From assembly GCA_029945625.1 (NCBI GenBank), contig JAQSCW010000008.1, forward strand, positions 1 through 49,032: a stretch of DNA of 49,032 bases, read 5' to 3'. Below the pieces are notes generated by a model, which saw nothing but the letters and a program-made list of their open reading frames with translations, did not search any database and had not been told where the DNA came from. This document shows positions 1,635-49,032 of this stretch, piece by piece (the stretch's first letter is position 1; each line of letters starts with the position of its first letter). Source of the stretch: a bacterium (GTDB lineage Bacteria > Bacteroidota > Bacteroidia > B-17B0 > Aurantibacillaceae). A program made the position numbers and the translations under genes.

Positions 1635-4600
1635 ATGATGACACACGATTTTAAGAAATTAAATAACCTAATTGGATGGCTGATTTGGGCTATTGCAAGC
1701 GTTACCTATTGTTTAACGATTGAGCCTACTGCCAGTTTTTGGGATTGTGGCGAATACATTGCCTGTGCTTATAAATTAGAAGTGGGTCATCCCCCCGGAG
1801 CTCCTTTCTTCCTCATCATCGGTCGCTTCTTTTCTTTGTTTGCCGGCGGTGATCCCGCCCTGGCAGCCATGATGGTTAATATCATGAGCGCCCTGTCCAC
1901 ATCATTTTCTATCCTCTTCCTGTTTTGGACCATCACCCGTTTGGGAATTAAAGTGTATGGCAAAAAAGTAGCCGATCTCAGCAAAGGCCAACAATGGGCC
2001 ATTCTGGGTGCCGGCATGGTTGGTAGTTTGGCCTGTACCTTCAGTGATACTTTCTGGTTCAGTGCGGTTGAAGGGGAAGTGTATGCTATGTCCTCTTTGT
2101 TTACTGCGGTTGCCTTTTGGGCCATTTTAAAATGGGACGAAGAAGATTCTGTCAATCCTACCGGCGCCCTGCGCTGGCTGGTACTCATCAGTTATTTAAT
2201 CGGCCTTTCCATTGGTGTGCATCTCCTCAGCCTCCTCACCATCCCCTCCATTTGTTTTATCATTTACTACAAAAAATACAAATTCAGCTGGAAAGGATTT
2301 ATTGTCGCGGGTGTGGTGTCGGTGCTCGTGCTCGCCTTTGTGCAAAATCTCATCATCCCCAAAATCGTAAAATTTATCAGCGACTACGAAGTGTTCTTCA
2401 CCAATAAATTGCATCTGGGATTCAGCACCGGAACCATATTATTCTTTGTGCTCCTCTCTTTTTCACTCACCGCCTTTATTGCTTACACCGCTACTAAAAA
2501 AGAACAATACTTCAAAGCCGGCTATTATTCGGCAATTGTTTTGTCGGTTTTTGCAGTGCTTACTGCCCCCAGCGGAATGGGCATGTTCACACGCCTGCTT
2601 ACTCTGGGCGCAATTTTGTATGCCATACAGAAATTTAAAAGCAAAACCAATACGCTCAATGCCATCTTTCTGAGTTTCGCCACTTTATTGATCGGTTATT
2701 CCACTTTTTTCATACTGGTCATTCGTTCTCAGGCAAATCCTCCTATGGATGAAAACGATCCCGAAAATGCACCCAATATGTTATCGTATTTGCTGCGTGA
2801 ACAATATGGCGACTGGCCACTTTTATACGGCCAATATTACAACGCGCCTTCACGTCCCCGCAACGATTACGCCAGCGGTGATCCCATTTACGCCAAAGAC
2901 AAAATCAATAATAACTATAAGGTTATCGATTCACGAAAACACTCAATCCCTACTTATGAAAAAGAATTTTGCACGGTGTTCCCTCGCATGTACAGCGGCC
3001 AACAGCATCACGAAGCCGGTTATAAATATTGGGGCAATGTAACCGACCATCATAAAAATAAAGTAGTGCAAAACCGGGAGGGAGAAGAGGAAACCGTGGA
3101 AATTCCTACCATGGCAGCAAACCTCACCTTTTTTAAAAATTACCAAATTGGGTATATGTACCTGCGTTATTTTGCCTGGAACTTTATTGGTCGTCAAAAT
3201 GATGTGCAGGGTTCAACCGGCAATAACATGGATGGTAACTGGATTACAGGCATCAAAGCGTTTGATGATTTCAGACTGGATTATGATACCTCCAATCCCA
3301 TCTACCGCGATAAACATAATTTTGCAAATAACAGTTTGTATGCACTCCCTTTTTTATTGGGAATTTTAGGTTTGTTTTTCCATTACAAACGTCAGAAAAA
3401 CGATGCCTGGGTAGTGCTTTCCTTTTTCCTTTTCACCGGGTTGGCCATTGTGGTGTTTCTCAATCAAACGCCTTATCAACCAAGAGAACGTGATTATGCG
3501 TATCCGGGAAGTTTCTACGCATTTTGTATCTGGATAGGTTTAGGAGTTTTGTTTATTTACGATAAACTTAGCAAAAAAAGTCCTTCCATGAGTATTGCCC
3601 TTGGTTCTACTGCGCTGGGCCTCATTGTGCCCTTTATTATGGCGAAAGAAGGCTGGAACGATCACGACCGTTCTTTAAGAACTTTGTCACGCGATTGCGC
3701 CATTAATTATTTGCAAAGTTGCGCCCCCAATGCCATCTTATTTACAAATGGTGATAACGACACCTTCCCACTATGGTATGCACAAGAGGTAGAAGGCATT
3801 CGTACCGACGTGCGCGTGGTGAACCTAAGTCTCCTCAACACCGATTGGTATATTCGCCAAATGCGCCGGGCTGCATACGACAGTCCTCCTGTGCCTTTTA
3901 CAATTCCCGAAGAAAAACTGGAAGCCGAAAAATTATCGTATTTAGTGATCGATAGTCGCGAGGCACGACCCATGCGCTTAAAGGATGCGCTCGACATGGG
4001 AATCAGCGATGATCCCGCAACCAAGATCGACAATGGGGGAGATCTGCTCGATGTTCTTCCTACCAACCAATTGTATGTTGATGTGGATAGTTTAAAGGTG
4101 ATGCGAAACAAAGTGATCAGCGTGAAAGATACCAACCGCTTGGTGAAACGTATTTCATGGAATCTGGGTGGAAGAAATTACATTCAGAAAAACGATGTGC
4201 TGGTACTGGATCTCGTGGCGCATAACGATTGGAAACGTCCCATCTATTTTGCGGTTACTACCGGCGATGAAGCCTATGTTGGTTTGAAAAAATATTTCCA
4301 ACTCGAAGGATTGGCCTATCGTTTTGTTCCCATCAAACAAACAGATAATGAAGAAGCACAAGGCGGACGTGTGAATACCGCCGTGATGTATGATAACATT
4401 ATGAATAAATTTTTGTGGGGAGGTATGGACAAAGCCGGTGTGAATCTGGATGAGAATTGTGTGCGGATGACCAGCAACTTAAGAATGCAAATGAGTATTC
4501 TGGCAGGCGCCCTTATCACCGAAGGAAAAAACAGCAAGGCTGAGAAAGTTCTGGATAAGAGTCTGCAAGTAATGCCCGATGAAAATATTCCTTTCGATGC

Positions 4601-20690: not shown

Positions 20691-21112
20691 GCAAAGTGAT
20701 TCTAATAAATTAAGAATTGAGAATTAAAAATTAGGGATATAAAAATCAAGACAGAAGGGAATCAAGACAGAAGGGAAACAAGCCAGAAGGGAATCAAGAC
20801 AGAAGGGAAACAAGACGGAAGGGAATCAAGACAGAAGGGAATCAAGACGGAAGAGAAACAAGACAGAAGGGAATCAAGACAGAAGGGAATCAAGACGGAA
20901 GAGAAACAAGACAGAAGGGAAACAGGACAGAAGGGAATCAAGACAGAAGGGAAACAAGACGGAAGGGAATCAAGACAGAAGGGAATCAAGACAGAAGGGA
21001 ATCAAGACAGAAGGGAAACAAGACGGAAGGGAAACAAGACAAACTTTTCTTTGCGATCTTAGCGTCTCTGCGCGACAAGAGGAAAACGGAAATTAACCAA
21101 TAAACTCCAAAT
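20691..21112. repeat. 16-bp purine-strand minisatellite and AT-rich mini-repeats
   Basis: Eighteen 16-bp units run from 20748 to 21035 with consensus AAGACAGAAGGGAATC. Variation is limited: A/G at position 6, T/A at position 15, a few other substitutions. The plus strand is nearly pure purine except for the C positions. It is preceded by AT-rich text (20704-20735) of a kind also seen at the vWA signal sequence and followed by a TCTTTGCGATCTTAGCG-type word. With 16 not divisible by three, the minus-strand reading frame here is an artefact of the repeat. No gene is supported. Confidence 0.95.
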
Positions 21113-36604: not shown

Positions 36605-38584
36605 TTGAGCCGCTTTGCCCTCATAGTCGTTGTTTTGCTTGCCAGAATGCATTCGTATGGCCAATGGGATCTTACCATTAGCAGTAAAGTGGAAAAAGAA
36701 GGAAAGGGTTTAGGTGGCGCAAAAATAGAATTGATCCAAGGCACCAAAGTTGTTTCTGAAATGACAAGTGCTTCTAATGGCGAATTCAAAGTGGAAGTGC
36801 CTCCAAACGGAGAGTTCATAATTCAGGTGTCTTACCCAAATTGTAATACCAAAAAATTTCAGGTCTTTACCCGCGGAGTACCACCCGATGTGGCTGCCGA
36901 CGATTTTAAGCCCAAATACAAAATTGGAGGGTTCACCATGAAAGAACCCTTGCCGGGCATTGATTATTCGGCATTAAAAAACCCCATGGTAAAAATTGTT
37001 TACTTCCCTGAAATAGGAAAATTTGACCATGTGGATGATCATACCGGTGCCATGCTCACGGCTCTCGATAAAATTAGAGCAGCCGAACAAGATCTGATTG
37101 ACCGGCAGGAGCAAGCAGTGAAGGACGGTGATGAGGCACTCAAAAAGAATGATTGTGTGTTGGCAAAATCGAATTATGAAAAAGCCATCAAGTTAATTCC
37201 CCAAAAACCTTACGACGATCTTCCAAAAGCCCAGATCCTGAAATGTGATAAGTGTATTGCCGATAAGGACGAAGGAGGCAAAAAAGCCGCAGAAACGGCT
37301 GCAGCTGCAGCGGCTGCACAGAAATTGGCTCAGGAAAAGGCGGCCGCAGAAAAACTTGCCGCAGAAAAAGCAGCAGCCGACAAAATGCTTGCCGAGAAAG
37401 CAGCAGCAGAAAAGAAGGCCGCTGATGATCTTGCCAAAGCCCAACAGGAAAAAGCAGCGAAGGAACTAGCAGAAAAAACAAAAGCTGAATCGGAAAGACT
37501 GGCGAAAGAGAAAGCGACGGCAGATAAATTGACGAAAGAAAAAGCAGAAGCAGATAAGAAGGCAGCAGAGGAACAGGCCAAAGTTCAACAAGAAAAATTG
37601 GCAAAAGAAAAAAGCGAATCAGAACGTTTAGCCAAAGAAAAGGAAGCCGCAGATAAACTCGCTAAAGAAAAAGCGGAAGCAGATAAGAAAGCTGCCGAGG
37701 AATCGACGAAGAGTCAACAGGAAAAGTTGGTAAAAGAAAAAGCGGAAGCGGACCGCCTGGCGGCTGAGAAAGCGGCGGCGGATAAACTAGCAAAAGAAAA
37801 AGCAGAAGCGGATAAAAAAGCTGCCGCCGAACTTTCTAAACAAGAACAGGAAAAGCTGGCAAAGGAAAACGCTACTAAAGCAAAAGCAGAATCAGATCGT
37901 TTAGCAAAAGAAAAAGAAGTTACTGATAGGGCGGCAAAAGAAAAGGCGGAAGCTGATCGTCTTCAAGCGGAGCAGGAGAAACTGGCGAAAGAAAAAATTA
38001 CGGTGCCTCCTCCTCCAAAACCTGATAATAGTAATGCCGAAGCCGCTCGTCTCGCAAAAGAAAAAGAAGCGGCCGATAAATTGGCGAAAGAAAAAGCGGC
38101 GGCAGATGAAAAGAAGTTGAAAGACCAAAAGAAAGCAGAATCGGAGCGCTTGGCAAAAGAGAAAGTTGAACAGGACGCGCGAAAAAAAGCTGAAGCAGAG
38201 AAACTTGCCAAAGAAACTGTTGCAAAAGAAAAACCAAAAGAGATTGCTAAAGAACAGAAGCCTGTGGCAGAAGAGAAAGTATATGTAAACCCGAAAAAAG
38301 AATCGGATCCAACTAATAATGCGGTGATCATTCCCAAAGATCAGAGTCCGGGCTCAACCAAGACCAAAGAAATTGGGTCATCAAAAGCGAAAATGGGAAT
38401 CCCTATTGTTTTAGGCGCCGACAATTATAAATTGAGTATTAAAAAGGCGGACGACTATTATAAAATGAAACGCTACGACGAAGCCAAAATTGCTTATGAG
38501 GAGGCGCTTTCTTATAAGGCCAATGATGCTTATGCCAAAAGTAGATTGGAATTGATTGCAAACATCAATCAGGCTAAGAAATAA
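36605..38584 (+). CDS. TolA-like secreted Ala/Lys/Glu-repeat protein with C-terminal TPR
   Basis: A 659-residue exported protein starting at TTG. Signal peptide 1-20 (MSRFALIVVVLLARMHSYGQ). Residues about 22-90 look like a carboxypeptidase-regulatory-like domain (GGAKIELIQGTKVVSEMTS), residues 165-210 a TPR-like pair, and residues about 225-565 a long single helix built of AEKAAADKLAKEKAEADKK-type repeats resembling the TolA stalk. The end (about 605-659, ADDYYKMKRYDEAKIAYEEALSY) is a TPR. The helix may span the periplasm. No Tol/Pal neighbour is present. The repeat codons vary, so it is an old repeat rather than a recent expansion. Confidence 0.78.
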   Translation: MSRFALIVVVLLARMHSYGQWDLTISSKVEKEGKGLGGAKIELIQGTKVVSEMTSASNGEFKVEVPPNGEFIIQVSYPNCNTKKFQVFTRGVPPDVAADDFKPKYKIGGFTMKEPLPGIDYSALKNPMVKIVYFPEIGKFDHVDDHTGAMLTALDKIRAAEQDLIDRQEQAVKDGDEALKKNDCVLAKSNYEKAIKLIPQKPYDDLPKAQILKCDKCIADKDEGGKKAAETAAAAAAAQKLAQEKAAAEKLAAEKAAADKMLAEKAAAEKKAADDLAKAQQEKAAKELAEKTKAESERLAKEKATADKLTKEKAEADKKAAEEQAKVQQEKLAKEKSESERLAKEKEAADKLAKEKAEADKKAAEESTKSQQEKLVKEKAEADRLAAEKAAADKLAKEKAEADKKAAAELSKQEQEKLAKENATKAKAESDRLAKEKEVTDRAAKEKAEADRLQAEQEKLAKEKITVPPPPKPDNSNAEAARLAKEKEAADKLAKEKAAADEKKLKDQKKAESERLAKEKVEQDARKKAEAEKLAKETVAKEKPKEIAKEQKPVAEEKVYVNPKKESDPTNNAVIIPKDQSPGSTKTKEIGSSKAKMGIPIVLGADNYKLSIKKADDYYKMKRYDEAKIAYEEALSYKANDAYAKSRLELIANINQAKK

Positions 38585-45890: not shown

Positions 45891-46355
45891 TCAATTCGGA
45901 AAATACACGAAATTGGAATTGGTGTCGAGCACACCAAAATTTACCGAGACCAATTTATTATTCTCGAAATAGCAATCGAGGCCGGCTTCGTCGAAGCTCA
46001 GGCGTTTTTCGCCCCATTTGTGTACTTCTGAATCGGAGAGGGCAAAGCCTTGTTTTTTCATGAGATCAATAACTTCTTTTTCTTTGAGGGTAAAAATTTT
46101 GGTACCGAAGAGGATGGCATCTTTATTGTCCATTTCCACGCTGCAAAAGGCCTGATCTTTGTTGGTGTCGAAAAAAATAGAAACCCCTTCATTCCAGTAG
46201 TGGTATACCAGGGAGTTATTGTTGAGAATATCGTCGGTAAGGTTTTGAATCTCTTCGGGCTCGCCCAGTTCTTGCACCACAGTATCTTTGCTGGCACCGA
46301 ATGGGAGGGTGCCAAAACCTTTCAGCAGGAGTATTTCGGGCGTTTCGAAGATCAT
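45891..46355 (-). CDS. small protein of unknown function
   Basis: A 154-residue soluble protein. Features: GFGTLPFGASKDTVVQELGEPEEI, an N-terminal segment of the PFGxSxxxVxxxLGxPxE type, and a C-terminal DCYFENNKLVSVNFGVL strand pair. I recognise the N-terminal layout from unassigned Bacteroidota proteins but cannot name a family. No motifs for catalysis, no signal peptide. The ATG start MIFETPEILL is the only good one. Confidence 0.62.
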   Translation of the reverse strand: MIFETPEILLLKGFGTLPFGASKDTVVQELGEPEEIQNLTDDILNNNSLVYHYWNEGVSIFFDTNKDQAFCSVEMDNKDAILFGTKIFTLKEKEVIDLMKKQGFALSDSEVHKWGEKRLSFDEAGLDCYFENNKLVSVNFGVLDTNSNFVYFPN

Positions 46356-46561: not shown

Positions 46562-46634
46562 GATTCCGTAGCTCAGCTGGTAGAGCATTACACTTTTAAT
46601 GTAGGGGTCCTGGGTTCGAATCCCAGCGGGATCA
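46562..46634 (+). tRNA. tRNA-Lys (anticodon TTT)
   Basis: Acceptor stem GATTCCG/CGGGATC (one G-T pair), D arm GCTC...GAGC, anticodon stem TTACA/TGTAG closing CTTTTAA with anticodon TTT, T arm CTGGG-TTCGAAT-CCCAG, discriminator A. CCA is not encoded. It is followed by a terminator and then by AT-rich genes unlike the rest of the window, so its 3' half could be an integration site. Confidence 0.97.
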
Positions 46635-46648
46635 CAGAATGAAGCTTG

Positions 46649-46686
46649 AAAGCCTTGTAAACCAACAGTTTACGAGGCTTTTTGCT
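46649..46686 (+). terminator. rho-independent terminator of tRNA-Lys
   Basis: A 14-bp stem (46649-46662 with 46668-46681, one T-G pair) has a 5-nt loop and a T-rich tail. Confidence 0.88.
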
Positions 46687-46857
46687 TTTCTATCAACAAT
46701 ATATCAATAATTTTCAAATAGCCAATTCACAATAGAACTAGTTAATTTTAGTTAGAGTTCCGTGCGGAAGTAAATTGAAACTGCTATTGTTCCAATTACC
46801 TCCCTGTGCAAAAAGTTGTTAATTAAATAGAGATAGGTTTTTTAATATCGATCTTTA

Positions 46858-46865
46858 TATTTGAC
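46858..46865 (+). promoter_or_regulatory. -7 box (TATATTTG) of the three-gene AT-rich operon
   Basis: Perfect TAnnTTTG 25 bases before the ATG at 46891; no clear -33. It supports 46891 rather than 46861 as the start of the first gene. Confidence 0.55.
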
Positions 46866-46890
46866 TAATTTAGTCAGTACACTTTATTTA

Positions 46891-47622
46891 ATGGAATCTC
46901 AAAGAGAATTATTTGCCAACAATAAGATTACTGAGGCTCTATGTCAAATTAGTTTTGATAGTTCTATCGATTTAACCAAATTAAATGGATTTTGGGAGGC
47001 CTTGAGTGAAAAGAAAATTTACATAGAAAAACAAGATCAACCATTACTTCAGTTTACTTTAAACGCAACAGATACTCTACCGACTCGCACAACTATTAAT
47101 GGATTAAGGCTTCAAAATGAAGCTAAGGATAAGGTAATTCAAATATTTCCTGACAACATTTCAATTCACCAAGTTGGCAATTATACTAAATGGGAAGATT
47201 TTAGGAGTAATATTTATTCTGTTTTAGACATTTTTAAAAAATATTTTTCCGCTGAAATTATTAGAATTGACTTGAGAACCATAAATAATTATGACTTGGG
47301 TTTAAATGAAGATTTAAAGAAGTTTTTTAAAATACATTTGGAAGTGCCGACTAGCTTAACAAACCCGTACAATTTTAATTTTTCGATCGAACAATCTTAC
47401 GAATCAAACAAGAGCTTTGGTGTAATTCGAGTAAACAGTATTAATCAAAATGACACCAAGAAAGTTACCTTCGATATAAGTTATGTGTTATTATGTAATG
47501 AATCTAAAATATCACTCAATGATTCTGACTCACTATCAAAAGAGCTTGAAAATGGTCATTCGAAATTAAACAGTATTTTTATGGATGCCATTACACAAGA
47601 AACTAAATCTTTAATTAAATAA
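46891..47622 (+). CDS. TIGR04255 family protein
   Basis: A 243-residue protein from the ATG at 46891. Family hallmarks: KITEALCQISFDSS near the N-terminus (the family has PIxEAxxEIRF here), VIQIFPDNISIHQVGNYTKWEDFRSNIYSVL in the middle and IIRIDLRTINNYDL after it. TIGR04255 proteins are found sporadically in bacteria, typically next to other unassigned genes; no function is established. Its base composition is clearly more AT-rich than the genes before the tRNA. It starts a tight three-gene operon (gaps of 2 and 14 bases) directly 3' of tRNA-Lys. Confidence 0.8.
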   Translation: MESQRELFANNKITEALCQISFDSSIDLTKLNGFWEALSEKKIYIEKQDQPLLQFTLNATDTLPTRTTINGLRLQNEAKDKVIQIFPDNISIHQVGNYTKWEDFRSNIYSVLDIFKKYFSAEIIRIDLRTINNYDLGLNEDLKKFFKIHLEVPTSLTNPYNFNFSIEQSYESNKSFGVIRVNSINQNDTKKVTFDISYVLLCNESKISLNDSDSLSKELENGHSKLNSIFMDAITQETKSLIK

Positions 47623-47624
47623 GT

Positions 47625-48116
47625 ATGGATGCACCAGTATTTGAAAAGCGGTATAATATTGAATACAATATTAATTGCGAATCGAAAAGTCTAAGTGCTA
47701 AATTAGGTTTAGCAGACAATGCGCTTACAAAAGCAATGCACACTCAAACGTCAAGACAGACCTTGAATGAAAGTATCACTGCGCCATCTCGACATAGCTT
47801 TTTACTAAATAGTTTTATTAAAGTGGCTCAAATATATAAGGAATTGAATTTGAATAATGAGAGAATTCTAAATACTTCAATCGAACTTTTGCAAAGTTGT
47901 GCCGTATTAGGAAAAACAAACTTGAATATTTCAAAGACATCTCAAGAAGAAATTTTAATTTATACTTCAAAAAATGGGAACTTTAATAATGTTTTAATTG
48001 ATGAGGATGGAGACATCTCCCTCTTAAGAGTTGGCGATAAAAAGGAAAATAAATATACAGCCTTTTATTCCGCAAACGAAAAAATTGACTTCAATTCGAT
48101 CGTGTCTTTTCTTTGA
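47625..48116 (+). CDS. unknown protein, second gene of the TIGR04255 operon
   Basis: A 163-residue protein I do not recognise. The first 95 residues are helical with a SFLLNSFIKVAQIYKEL stretch; the second half alternates short strands (EEILIYTSKNGNFNNVLIDEDGDISLLRVG) with the look of a compact beta domain ending in FNSIVSFL. No catalytic motif, signal peptide or membrane segment. It begins two bases after the TIGR04255 gene stops, so it is co-translated with it, and a functional or physical partnership is likely but unproven. Confidence 0.75.
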   Translation: MDAPVFEKRYNIEYNINCESKSLSAKLGLADNALTKAMHTQTSRQTLNESITAPSRHSFLLNSFIKVAQIYKELNLNNERILNTSIELLQSCAVLGKTNLNISKTSQEEILIYTSKNGNFNNVLIDEDGDISLLRVGDKKENKYTAFYSANEKIDFNSIVSFL

Positions 48117-48130
48117 TTTGATTATGGGGT

Positions 48131-48802
48131 ATGGCTTGTTTAGATTCAAAAATCCCTAAATATTTACATTACAGCGAAAAGAAAAGACCTGTTTTAAGTC
48201 AATCAAGATTTAAAATAAATCAAATTCTTTTCAGGACAGGTTTTAAAGAAAAAGTAAACCCTATCGAATTACCCCCGTCTAATCCGACTTCGATTTCAGT
48301 TTGTTGGAATAAATTAATACAATTAAATCACGTACTATTTACAGTTAAATCTGGGGCTAAAAATCCAGATAATTTAGGTAATCGTGTTTTTTATGGATTT
48401 GTGGGGGAAGTTAAACGATTTAACTTGGAAAGAACTTGTTTATCTGGCATTTATACAGGACCTCACGTGATTAGTTTAACTATTAGACACGATCCCTTAC
48501 CATGTAATTATTCTCATACAGAAATTTTAATAAGACATTCTTTTTATGAAAGTAATAAATTAAAAAGCGTAATAATCGAACACTCTGCTTGGAAAAGTTC
48601 GCTTTTTAAAATGGTCAAGGGTGAAGATAAAAAATTCTTTAAAGATTTGGAGTTGAATTTTAGAGCAGATGTGGTTCATCTTTTAAAACGAGATTCCGAA
48701 GCACTGAATAAAACATGGCTTTCAAGGTCGTTTATTAAAGTGGCAATTATTAGACTATTCTTACCATTGCAAATGTATTTAGTAAGTTTGAAAAAGAATT
48801 AA
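48131..48802 (+). CDS. unknown protein, third gene of the TIGR04255 operon
   Basis: A 223-residue protein I do not recognise. Possible conserved-type features are HYSEKKRPVLSQSRFKI near the start, the block VFYGFVGEV in the middle, and IRHDPLPCNYSHTEILIRHSFYES, where several His and a Cys cluster as in metal-binding sites; the C-terminal 25 residues (FIKVAIIRLFLPLQMYLV) are hydrophobic enough for a membrane anchor. It follows the second gene by 14 bases. Together with the two upstream genes it forms a candidate undescribed module. Confidence 0.72.
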   Translation: MACLDSKIPKYLHYSEKKRPVLSQSRFKINQILFRTGFKEKVNPIELPPSNPTSISVCWNKLIQLNHVLFTVKSGAKNPDNLGNRVFYGFVGEVKRFNLERTCLSGIYTGPHVISLTIRHDPLPCNYSHTEILIRHSFYESNKLKSVIIEHSAWKSSLFKMVKGEDKKFFKDLELNFRADVVHLLKRDSEALNKTWLSRSFIKVAIIRLFLPLQMYLVSLKKN

Positions 48803-49000
48803 TAATCTTTTCTACAATTAAAGTTGTTTGTTTTTTGAGAAAAACGTCCAAAACTATTTGTTGATGCCCCTTCTCCGTAAAGATGCAACATAAGCAATTA
48901 AACTCATCTTCAAACACAAAATTTCCACAAACTATTTGAACAGATGGTATTTGGGACTTGAGTTTGAACAGAGACTGACTGGAAATTCCGCTTAAATAGG

Positions 49001-49032
49001 CCCCACTTCATCACTTCAAACTGACCCCACTT
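49001..49032. mobile_element. putative IS21-family terminal repeat (partial, at window edge)
   Basis: CCCCACTT occurs at 49001-49008 and 49025-49032, 24 bp apart, with TCATCACTTCAAACTGA between. Such spaced GACCCCACTT repeats are what I expect at the ends of IS21-like elements, whose transposase binds several short terminal repeats. No istA/istB reading frame is inside the window, so this stays a suggestion. Confidence 0.45.

Follow-up and report, generated by a model that had tools for sequence, protein, structure and literature searches.

A TIGR04255-led three-gene operon beside tRNA-Lys, a possible toxin-based mobile module for defence or addiction

The operon and its components

The window, by which is meant the whole stretch of DNA that was analysed (49,032 bases), closes with three genes that follow a tRNA-Lys gene and are here called A, B and C (Table 1). 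On re-reading of the open reading frames the three genes are confirmed to lie on the same strand and to be tightly spaced, with 2 bases between A and B and 14 bases between B and C. The start of A is 255 bases from the tRNA-Lys and 208 bases from the terminator-like stem, where the preliminary description gave about 250 bases from a terminator. One such stem was found where 1.2 were expected in shuffles of the same region, and a promoter scan found 13 candidates against 10.5 expected. A candidate operator palindrome at 46862-46876 was rejected, as equally long arms occurred in 81 of 500 shuffles. The operon is, as had been noted, more AT-rich than everything upstream, with a GC content of 0.29 in A, 0.32 in B and 0.30 in C against 0.42 upstream; of the 1.9-kb stretches there (in steps of 50), the one poorest in GC is at 0.37.

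Table 1. Features of the operon and its flanks, with positions in the window
Feature	Position	Strand	Proposed role or basis
tRNA-Lys (TTT)	46562..46635	+	Proposed point of insertion in the genus; relatives vary here and some carry recombinases
Terminator-like stem 3' of tRNA-Lys	46648..46682	+	Stem scan
Gene A, TIGR04255 protein, 243 aa	46891..47622	+	Constant component; proposed sensor/stabiliser
Gene B, 163 aa, DEDGDI motif	47625..48116	+	Proposed antitoxin/adaptor
Gene C, 223 aa, H-x-P-x-P-C-N-Y-S-H at 120-129	48131..48802	+	Proposed toxin/effector
Multi-copy element end, probably insertion sequence	48978..49032		Repeats elsewhere in genome

Gene A is a member of TIGR04255, scoring 84.3 bits against a cut-off of 30 (E 1.1e-23, NCBIfam), and residues 8-242 align to positions 2-251 of the 252 in the profile, which is nearly its full length. 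The name of the model reflects its sporadic distribution and it has no assigned function; a full-text search of open-licence PubMed Central papers found none on it. Both B and C are unassigned, neither being over any Pfam or NCBIfam cut-off. Weak matches to A and B (E 0.04-0.11) are far below cut-off and C has none. No PADLOC family was matched by A, B or C at E up to 1. A sequence search of the PDB found nothing credible for A, for C or for profiles of either, and two structure models were unusable, with mean pLDDT of 38 and 33. Across 21 aligned A proteins there are no invariant columns and F230 alone is nearly so, a pattern that fits binding more than catalysis.

The cluster of histidine and cysteine residues reported in C is real and conserved, with H120, P122, C125, Y127 and H129 invariant in five aligned C proteins. 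The membrane anchor suggested for its C-terminus has fared less well. The best 19-residue hydropathy is 1.67, at residues 202-220, a segment that is absent from the C proteins of loci L009 and L052, and the best stretches in C of L009, L044 and L052 have lower scores and other positions. The putative anchor is borderline and lacks conservation. This type of C is rare, a profile of three such proteins finding it in 3 of 395 phylum genomes. The closest relative, at 86%, is in a Flavobacterium MAG (L008) on a contig that begins within B; the two loci are 82% identical over 1052 bases and the similarity stops at the last codons of C. Two weak matches (L006 and L007) were rejected as relatives, being located in unrelated genes.

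Elsewhere in the window, a 155-base tandem repeat occupies the very start of the contig (1-561; 3.6 copies, 98%) and about 19 copies of a 16-base unit (20744-21041) lie between a YchF-like GTPase gene, recognised by eye, and a 260-aa ORF. A 659-aa ORF at 36605-38584 has long repeats rich in Lys, Glu and Ala, and the AT skew is strongest there, at 37-38 kb.

The tRNA-Lys site in related genomes

The same tRNA-Lys was read in 20 same-genus genomes, of 39 others matching. The gene just upstream of it (45891-46355) is kept in all 20. The DNA 3' of the tRNA-Lys is variable among these relatives and is partly shared, one gene being common to L119, L129 and L132. A recombinase, confirmed by Pfam, is directly downstream in 4 of the 20: a tyrosine recombinase at +260, common to L120 and L122, and large serine recombinases in L128 (2536-4095) and L131 (4684-6246), the 3' ends of which overlap the tRNA-Lys. 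With variable DNA and recombinases both present, the identification of this tRNA-Lys as an integration hotspot in the genus is well supported. In L127 a protein with HEPN and nucleotidyltransferase parts (2797-3675) is found about 390 bases after the tRNA-Lys, and is perhaps another toxin-antitoxin-like insert.

Neither A nor C was found at the tRNA-Lys of the 20 relatives (tblastn, E 1e-5), several of the stretches being short, with less than 1 kb after the tRNA-Lys in L123 and L130. Their absence goes against the view that these are ordinary chromosomal genes conserved at this site. TIGR04255 is present in 1 of 40 genomes of the genus, which bears out the sporadic distribution claimed for it. 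Given the constant upstream gene, the variable DNA and recombinases on the 3' side and this single occurrence, the operon is most likely an insert at the tRNA-Lys hotspot.

The contig ends at 49032, 230 bases after C. Its last 52-55 bases recur with 100% identity at 11 other places in the genome, and at two more less exactly; eight of the 11 identical copies are the first bases of a contig. This suggests that a multi-copy element, probably an insertion sequence, starts 175-177 bases after C. No exact copy of a 12-mer of the tRNA was found in the window after 46700, nor in L008.

TIGR04255 operons with a varying third gene

Searches for TIGR04255 gave 20 genomes with a match among 295 of the class (19 of them over cut-off) and 24 among 395 of the phylum (23 over cut-off), and none among the 14 control genomes of either comparison. 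The class and phylum samples overlap; together they hold 45 TIGR04255 places, and one Crinalium plasmid brings these to 46, of which 43 were examined (G479:C320, G162 and G530 were left out). In 41 of the 43 loci, A is followed by two ORFs on the same strand. The gene order is therefore conserved, and the possibility that two partner genes never accompany TIGR04255 does not hold. The partner ORFs in the 41 loci are 95-280 aa long with gaps of -56 to +101 bases, where the operon rule allowed -75 to +150 bases. The exceptions are L034, with a stop within A, and L040, whose contig stops after B; L093 is counted among the 41 although its A is broken by two stops. The set includes near copies (L079/L080 and L087/L064), and the A profile was itself built from 21 of these loci. 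As a control, the same rule was applied to ORFs of 200-350 aa from 20 other regions of these genomes, and 7 of 47 passed, or 18 of 47 without the partner size limit. In a few loci (L009, L044 and L052) the two partners are homologous to the B and C of the window.

The 41 C proteins were sorted, partly by eye, into 16 of the window's H-x-P...H type (the first position being R in L042 and Y in L049), 7 of a P...H variant, 5 'ARK', 4 'TCD', 5 PemK/MazF, 2 HEPN, 1 DUF7689 (L038, E 8.7e-21) and 1 PIN-like lead. Unnamed types thus make up 32 of the 41, with known toxin families accounting for 7. Pfam confirmed all three of the five PemK/MazF proteins that were tested (E 1.5e-14, 4.1e-13 and 1.6e-12); all five loci are from one genus (g117) and one clade of A. 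Some 'ARK' loci have a HEAT-like B, with a best E of 3.6e-5 that is under the Pfam cut-off. HEPN proteins are the C of L078, L039 and a Thermus plasmid. The PADLOC model HEPN_IX matched two, unspecified, of 47 proteins (best 4.9e-6), blastp between the L039 and L078 proteins gave 5e-9, and the Pfam HEPN scores of 21.8 and 17.7 are below the cut-off of 22. The canonical HEPN motif is R-x(4-6)-H; by eye this is present in C of L039 and absent from those of L078 and Thermus. The PIN toxin at L036 was seen by eye in pieces in more than one frame, with Pfam and the PDB unsupportive, and is kept as a lead only.

Most of the C proteins that can be given a name are of toxin families, which makes C most likely the effector, with B as its partner and A as the controller. 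The reverse arrangement, in which A is the effector and C a changeable recognition part, would suit a constant A and a variable C. It is very improbable, as some C positions hold PemK/MazF, HEPN or an annotated zeta toxin and A is without an invariant column.

Comparisons between the C classes by hhalign gave 50% for I-Ib, 53% for I-IIb, 95% for II-IIb, 20% for IIb-IV and 3% for I-II, with reversed controls reaching 1.2. From these links, which are moderate, the C of the window may belong to the commonest, and unnamed, superfamily of C. The window's B class was linked by hhalign to no other B class. In a quick tree of 40 A proteins, 12 changes are needed to account for nine C types, whereas shuffling gave a mean of 23.4 and none of 200 shuffles was as low; 10 of the 37 inner branches are unsure, and L034, L040, L064, L088 and L093 were omitted and the Vibrio and Thermus proteins added. 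A and C have therefore been associated for a long time, with some replacement. This tracking of the A tree by C type, and the fact that A is the sole component recognisably conserved across all C types, would also be seen if A were an antitoxin binding changing toxins and B a co-factor or regulator. This is unlikely, however, because the candidate system PDC-M32, described below, retains parts like B and C in the absence of TIGR04255, favouring B and C as the working pair.

Cassettes of this kind are also carried by plasmids. Searches by tblastn matched 3 of 72,556 plasmid records, the start of the cassette being on three plasmids of three phyla (Crinalium, Vibrio and Thermus). On the Vibrio plasmid TIGR04255 is followed by a 179-aa protein and then a protein annotated as zeta toxin family; this name is that of the record, and phmmer against the PDB found nothing at E up to 0.1. 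The Thermus plasmid carries TIGR04255 and B together with a HEPN ORF that lacks annotation, and its A, B and C match those of L078 at 54, 34 and 50%. This similarity in all three genes suggests that the whole cassette has been transferred between phyla. Phage records searched with tblastn had no matches, the window's A or C as tblastn query matched no plasmid or phage record, and viral contigs scanned with C or A alignments had no relative. Seven of the 43 cassettes, including that of the window, are within 250 bases of a contig end (the others are L033, L036, L037, L040, L044 and L080); as a raw count, this is what flanking repeats or mobile elements would lead one to expect.

Neighbourhoods, proposed function and known systems

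The preliminary description had offered a defence system as an inference from position, composition and distribution. Known defence genes (BREX, restriction and OLD, by PADLOC) are indeed neighbours of some cassettes and toxin families are found at C in a minority; the defensive role itself is putative. Twelve of the 43 loci, hand-picked as promising, were scanned singly, and 9 of these have a PADLOC match of E <=1e-20 within about 5 kb; the remaining three are L034 (3e-11), L039 (1e-10) and L091 (2e-16). The neighbours in L078 are BREX genes (PglZ, BrxH and BrxA), and in L045 the cassette sits between two subunits of a type III restriction-modification system. Type IIG is found at L047, type I restriction at L079, a type I methyltransferase on the Crinalium plasmid, OLD at L095, an AriA/OLD-like gene at L094, RmrA at L009 and PDC-S01 at L082. 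In a pooled scan, the 105 proteins neighbouring 20 loci had hits in 196 PADLOC families, and 119 control proteins, from 20 same-contig regions, in 92; these are counts of families rather than proteins and are to be read qualitatively. Among the 25 control families listed, GajB models, which UvrD-like helicases fit, account for 20, and the control matches listed also include a type II endonuclease model, MzaA, PDC-M37B and DolB.

The named toxin families in the C position and the defence genes near several copies support a defence reading. A toxin-based module that is mobile and serves defence or addiction is a possible reading of the operon, and we place slightly less than even odds (about 0.48) on a horizontally mobile three-component toxin-antitoxin-like module that is probably anti-phage, acting by abortive infection, with C as the effector, B as its partner and A as a shared controller. 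Several points weigh against this module: known toxins occupy C in just 7 of 41 loci, the PemK/MazF loci are confined to a single genus and A clade, the HEPN scores are low and the motif is absent in part, the zeta name comes from annotation, plasmid matches are few and phage matches none in the tblastn searches, control regions have PADLOC matches as well, and the window's C is of a rare type with no recognised fold. That C is toxic, what A and B do, what triggers the module and that it defends the cell are inferred along the following lines. C, once released, would arrest the cell, perhaps by means of an active site built around histidine. B would bind or neutralise C as an antitoxin or adaptor. 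A would be a shared sensor or stabiliser, holding the complex inactive and reacting to infection or other disturbance.

With the roles of A, B and C unchanged, the module might instead serve as an addiction module that retains a mobile element and has no anti-phage role. The plasmid copies in three records, the tRNA-Lys hotspot and the adjoining end of a multi-copy element are in keeping with this. It is nonetheless doubtful in view of the defence genes that accompany several copies (BREX, restriction-modification, OLD and others), and because at least four copies are on contigs of 2.8-4.5 million bases (G151, G176, G493 and G472). An operon for accessory metabolism or regulation, with no link to toxins or defence, would be consistent with a B and C of no known family and with the lack of PADLOC matches to the three proteins, yet is improbable for an operon that is sporadic in its genus, occupies a hotspot, and has toxin families at some C positions and defence genes among its neighbours.

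A broader proposal, which is more tentative than the anti-phage module, is that TIGR04255 is the constant sensor of widespread three-component immune modules with interchangeable effectors, and that the C of the window represents a new toxin superfamily with a P...H active site, of which H-x-P-x-P-C-N-Y-S-H is the best form. C proteins of the P...H type are commoner than any named effector in the loci examined (16-23 of 41, against 5). As the fixed first gene of a cassette with an exchangeable C, TIGR04255 would become a directly testable component of toxin control, and the unnamed C types a set of candidate toxins.

PDC-M32 of PADLOC, one of the closest known systems, is itself a candidate, termed hypothetical in PMC12429752. 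In hhalign comparisons of two examples each (L180 and L181), a domain close to the end of PDC-M32A is B-like, at 75% with B class IV, and PDC-M32B is similar to the C proteins of classes II (74%) and III (58%); reversed controls gave at most 1.8. The presence of B-like and C-like parts with a different front domain supports a split between a controller and a B-C pair. Weak matches to the PDC-M32B model were given by C of L046 (E 1.3e-3) and L090 (0.055), with 0 of 18 matched at E 1e-3, and to the PDC-M32A model by B of L035 (8.1e-4). PDC-M32 has seven full-length matches among 345 genomes, all in one genus. It differs in having two genes rather than three, and the first 250 residues of PDC-M32A are unlike TIGR04255 (0.2%). 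The window's own B and C classes have no direct PDC-M32 match (0.2% and 1.2%), so that, with no PADLOC match either, its proteins are joined to PDC-M32 by distant links through other classes rather than as members.

The toxin-antitoxin-chaperone systems are alike in layout, having three components and toxins of several families. One of these, CmdTAC, is described in PMC11618068 as a three-component module that defends against phage. Their constant component is a SecB-like chaperone, whereas A is not SecB-like by sequence, neither the window's A (E up to 1) nor that of L078 (0.5) having a match to the SecB family in Pfam.

The type II toxin-antitoxin systems with PemK/MazF or HEPN toxins are approached by the five loci that end in a short ORF followed by PemK/MazF (three tested). 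The C of the window, which has no family in Pfam or NCBIfam and so cannot be placed in a known toxin family of type II systems, lies outside these groups. The operons described here differ further from type II systems in that TIGR04255 precedes the pair as a third conserved gene.
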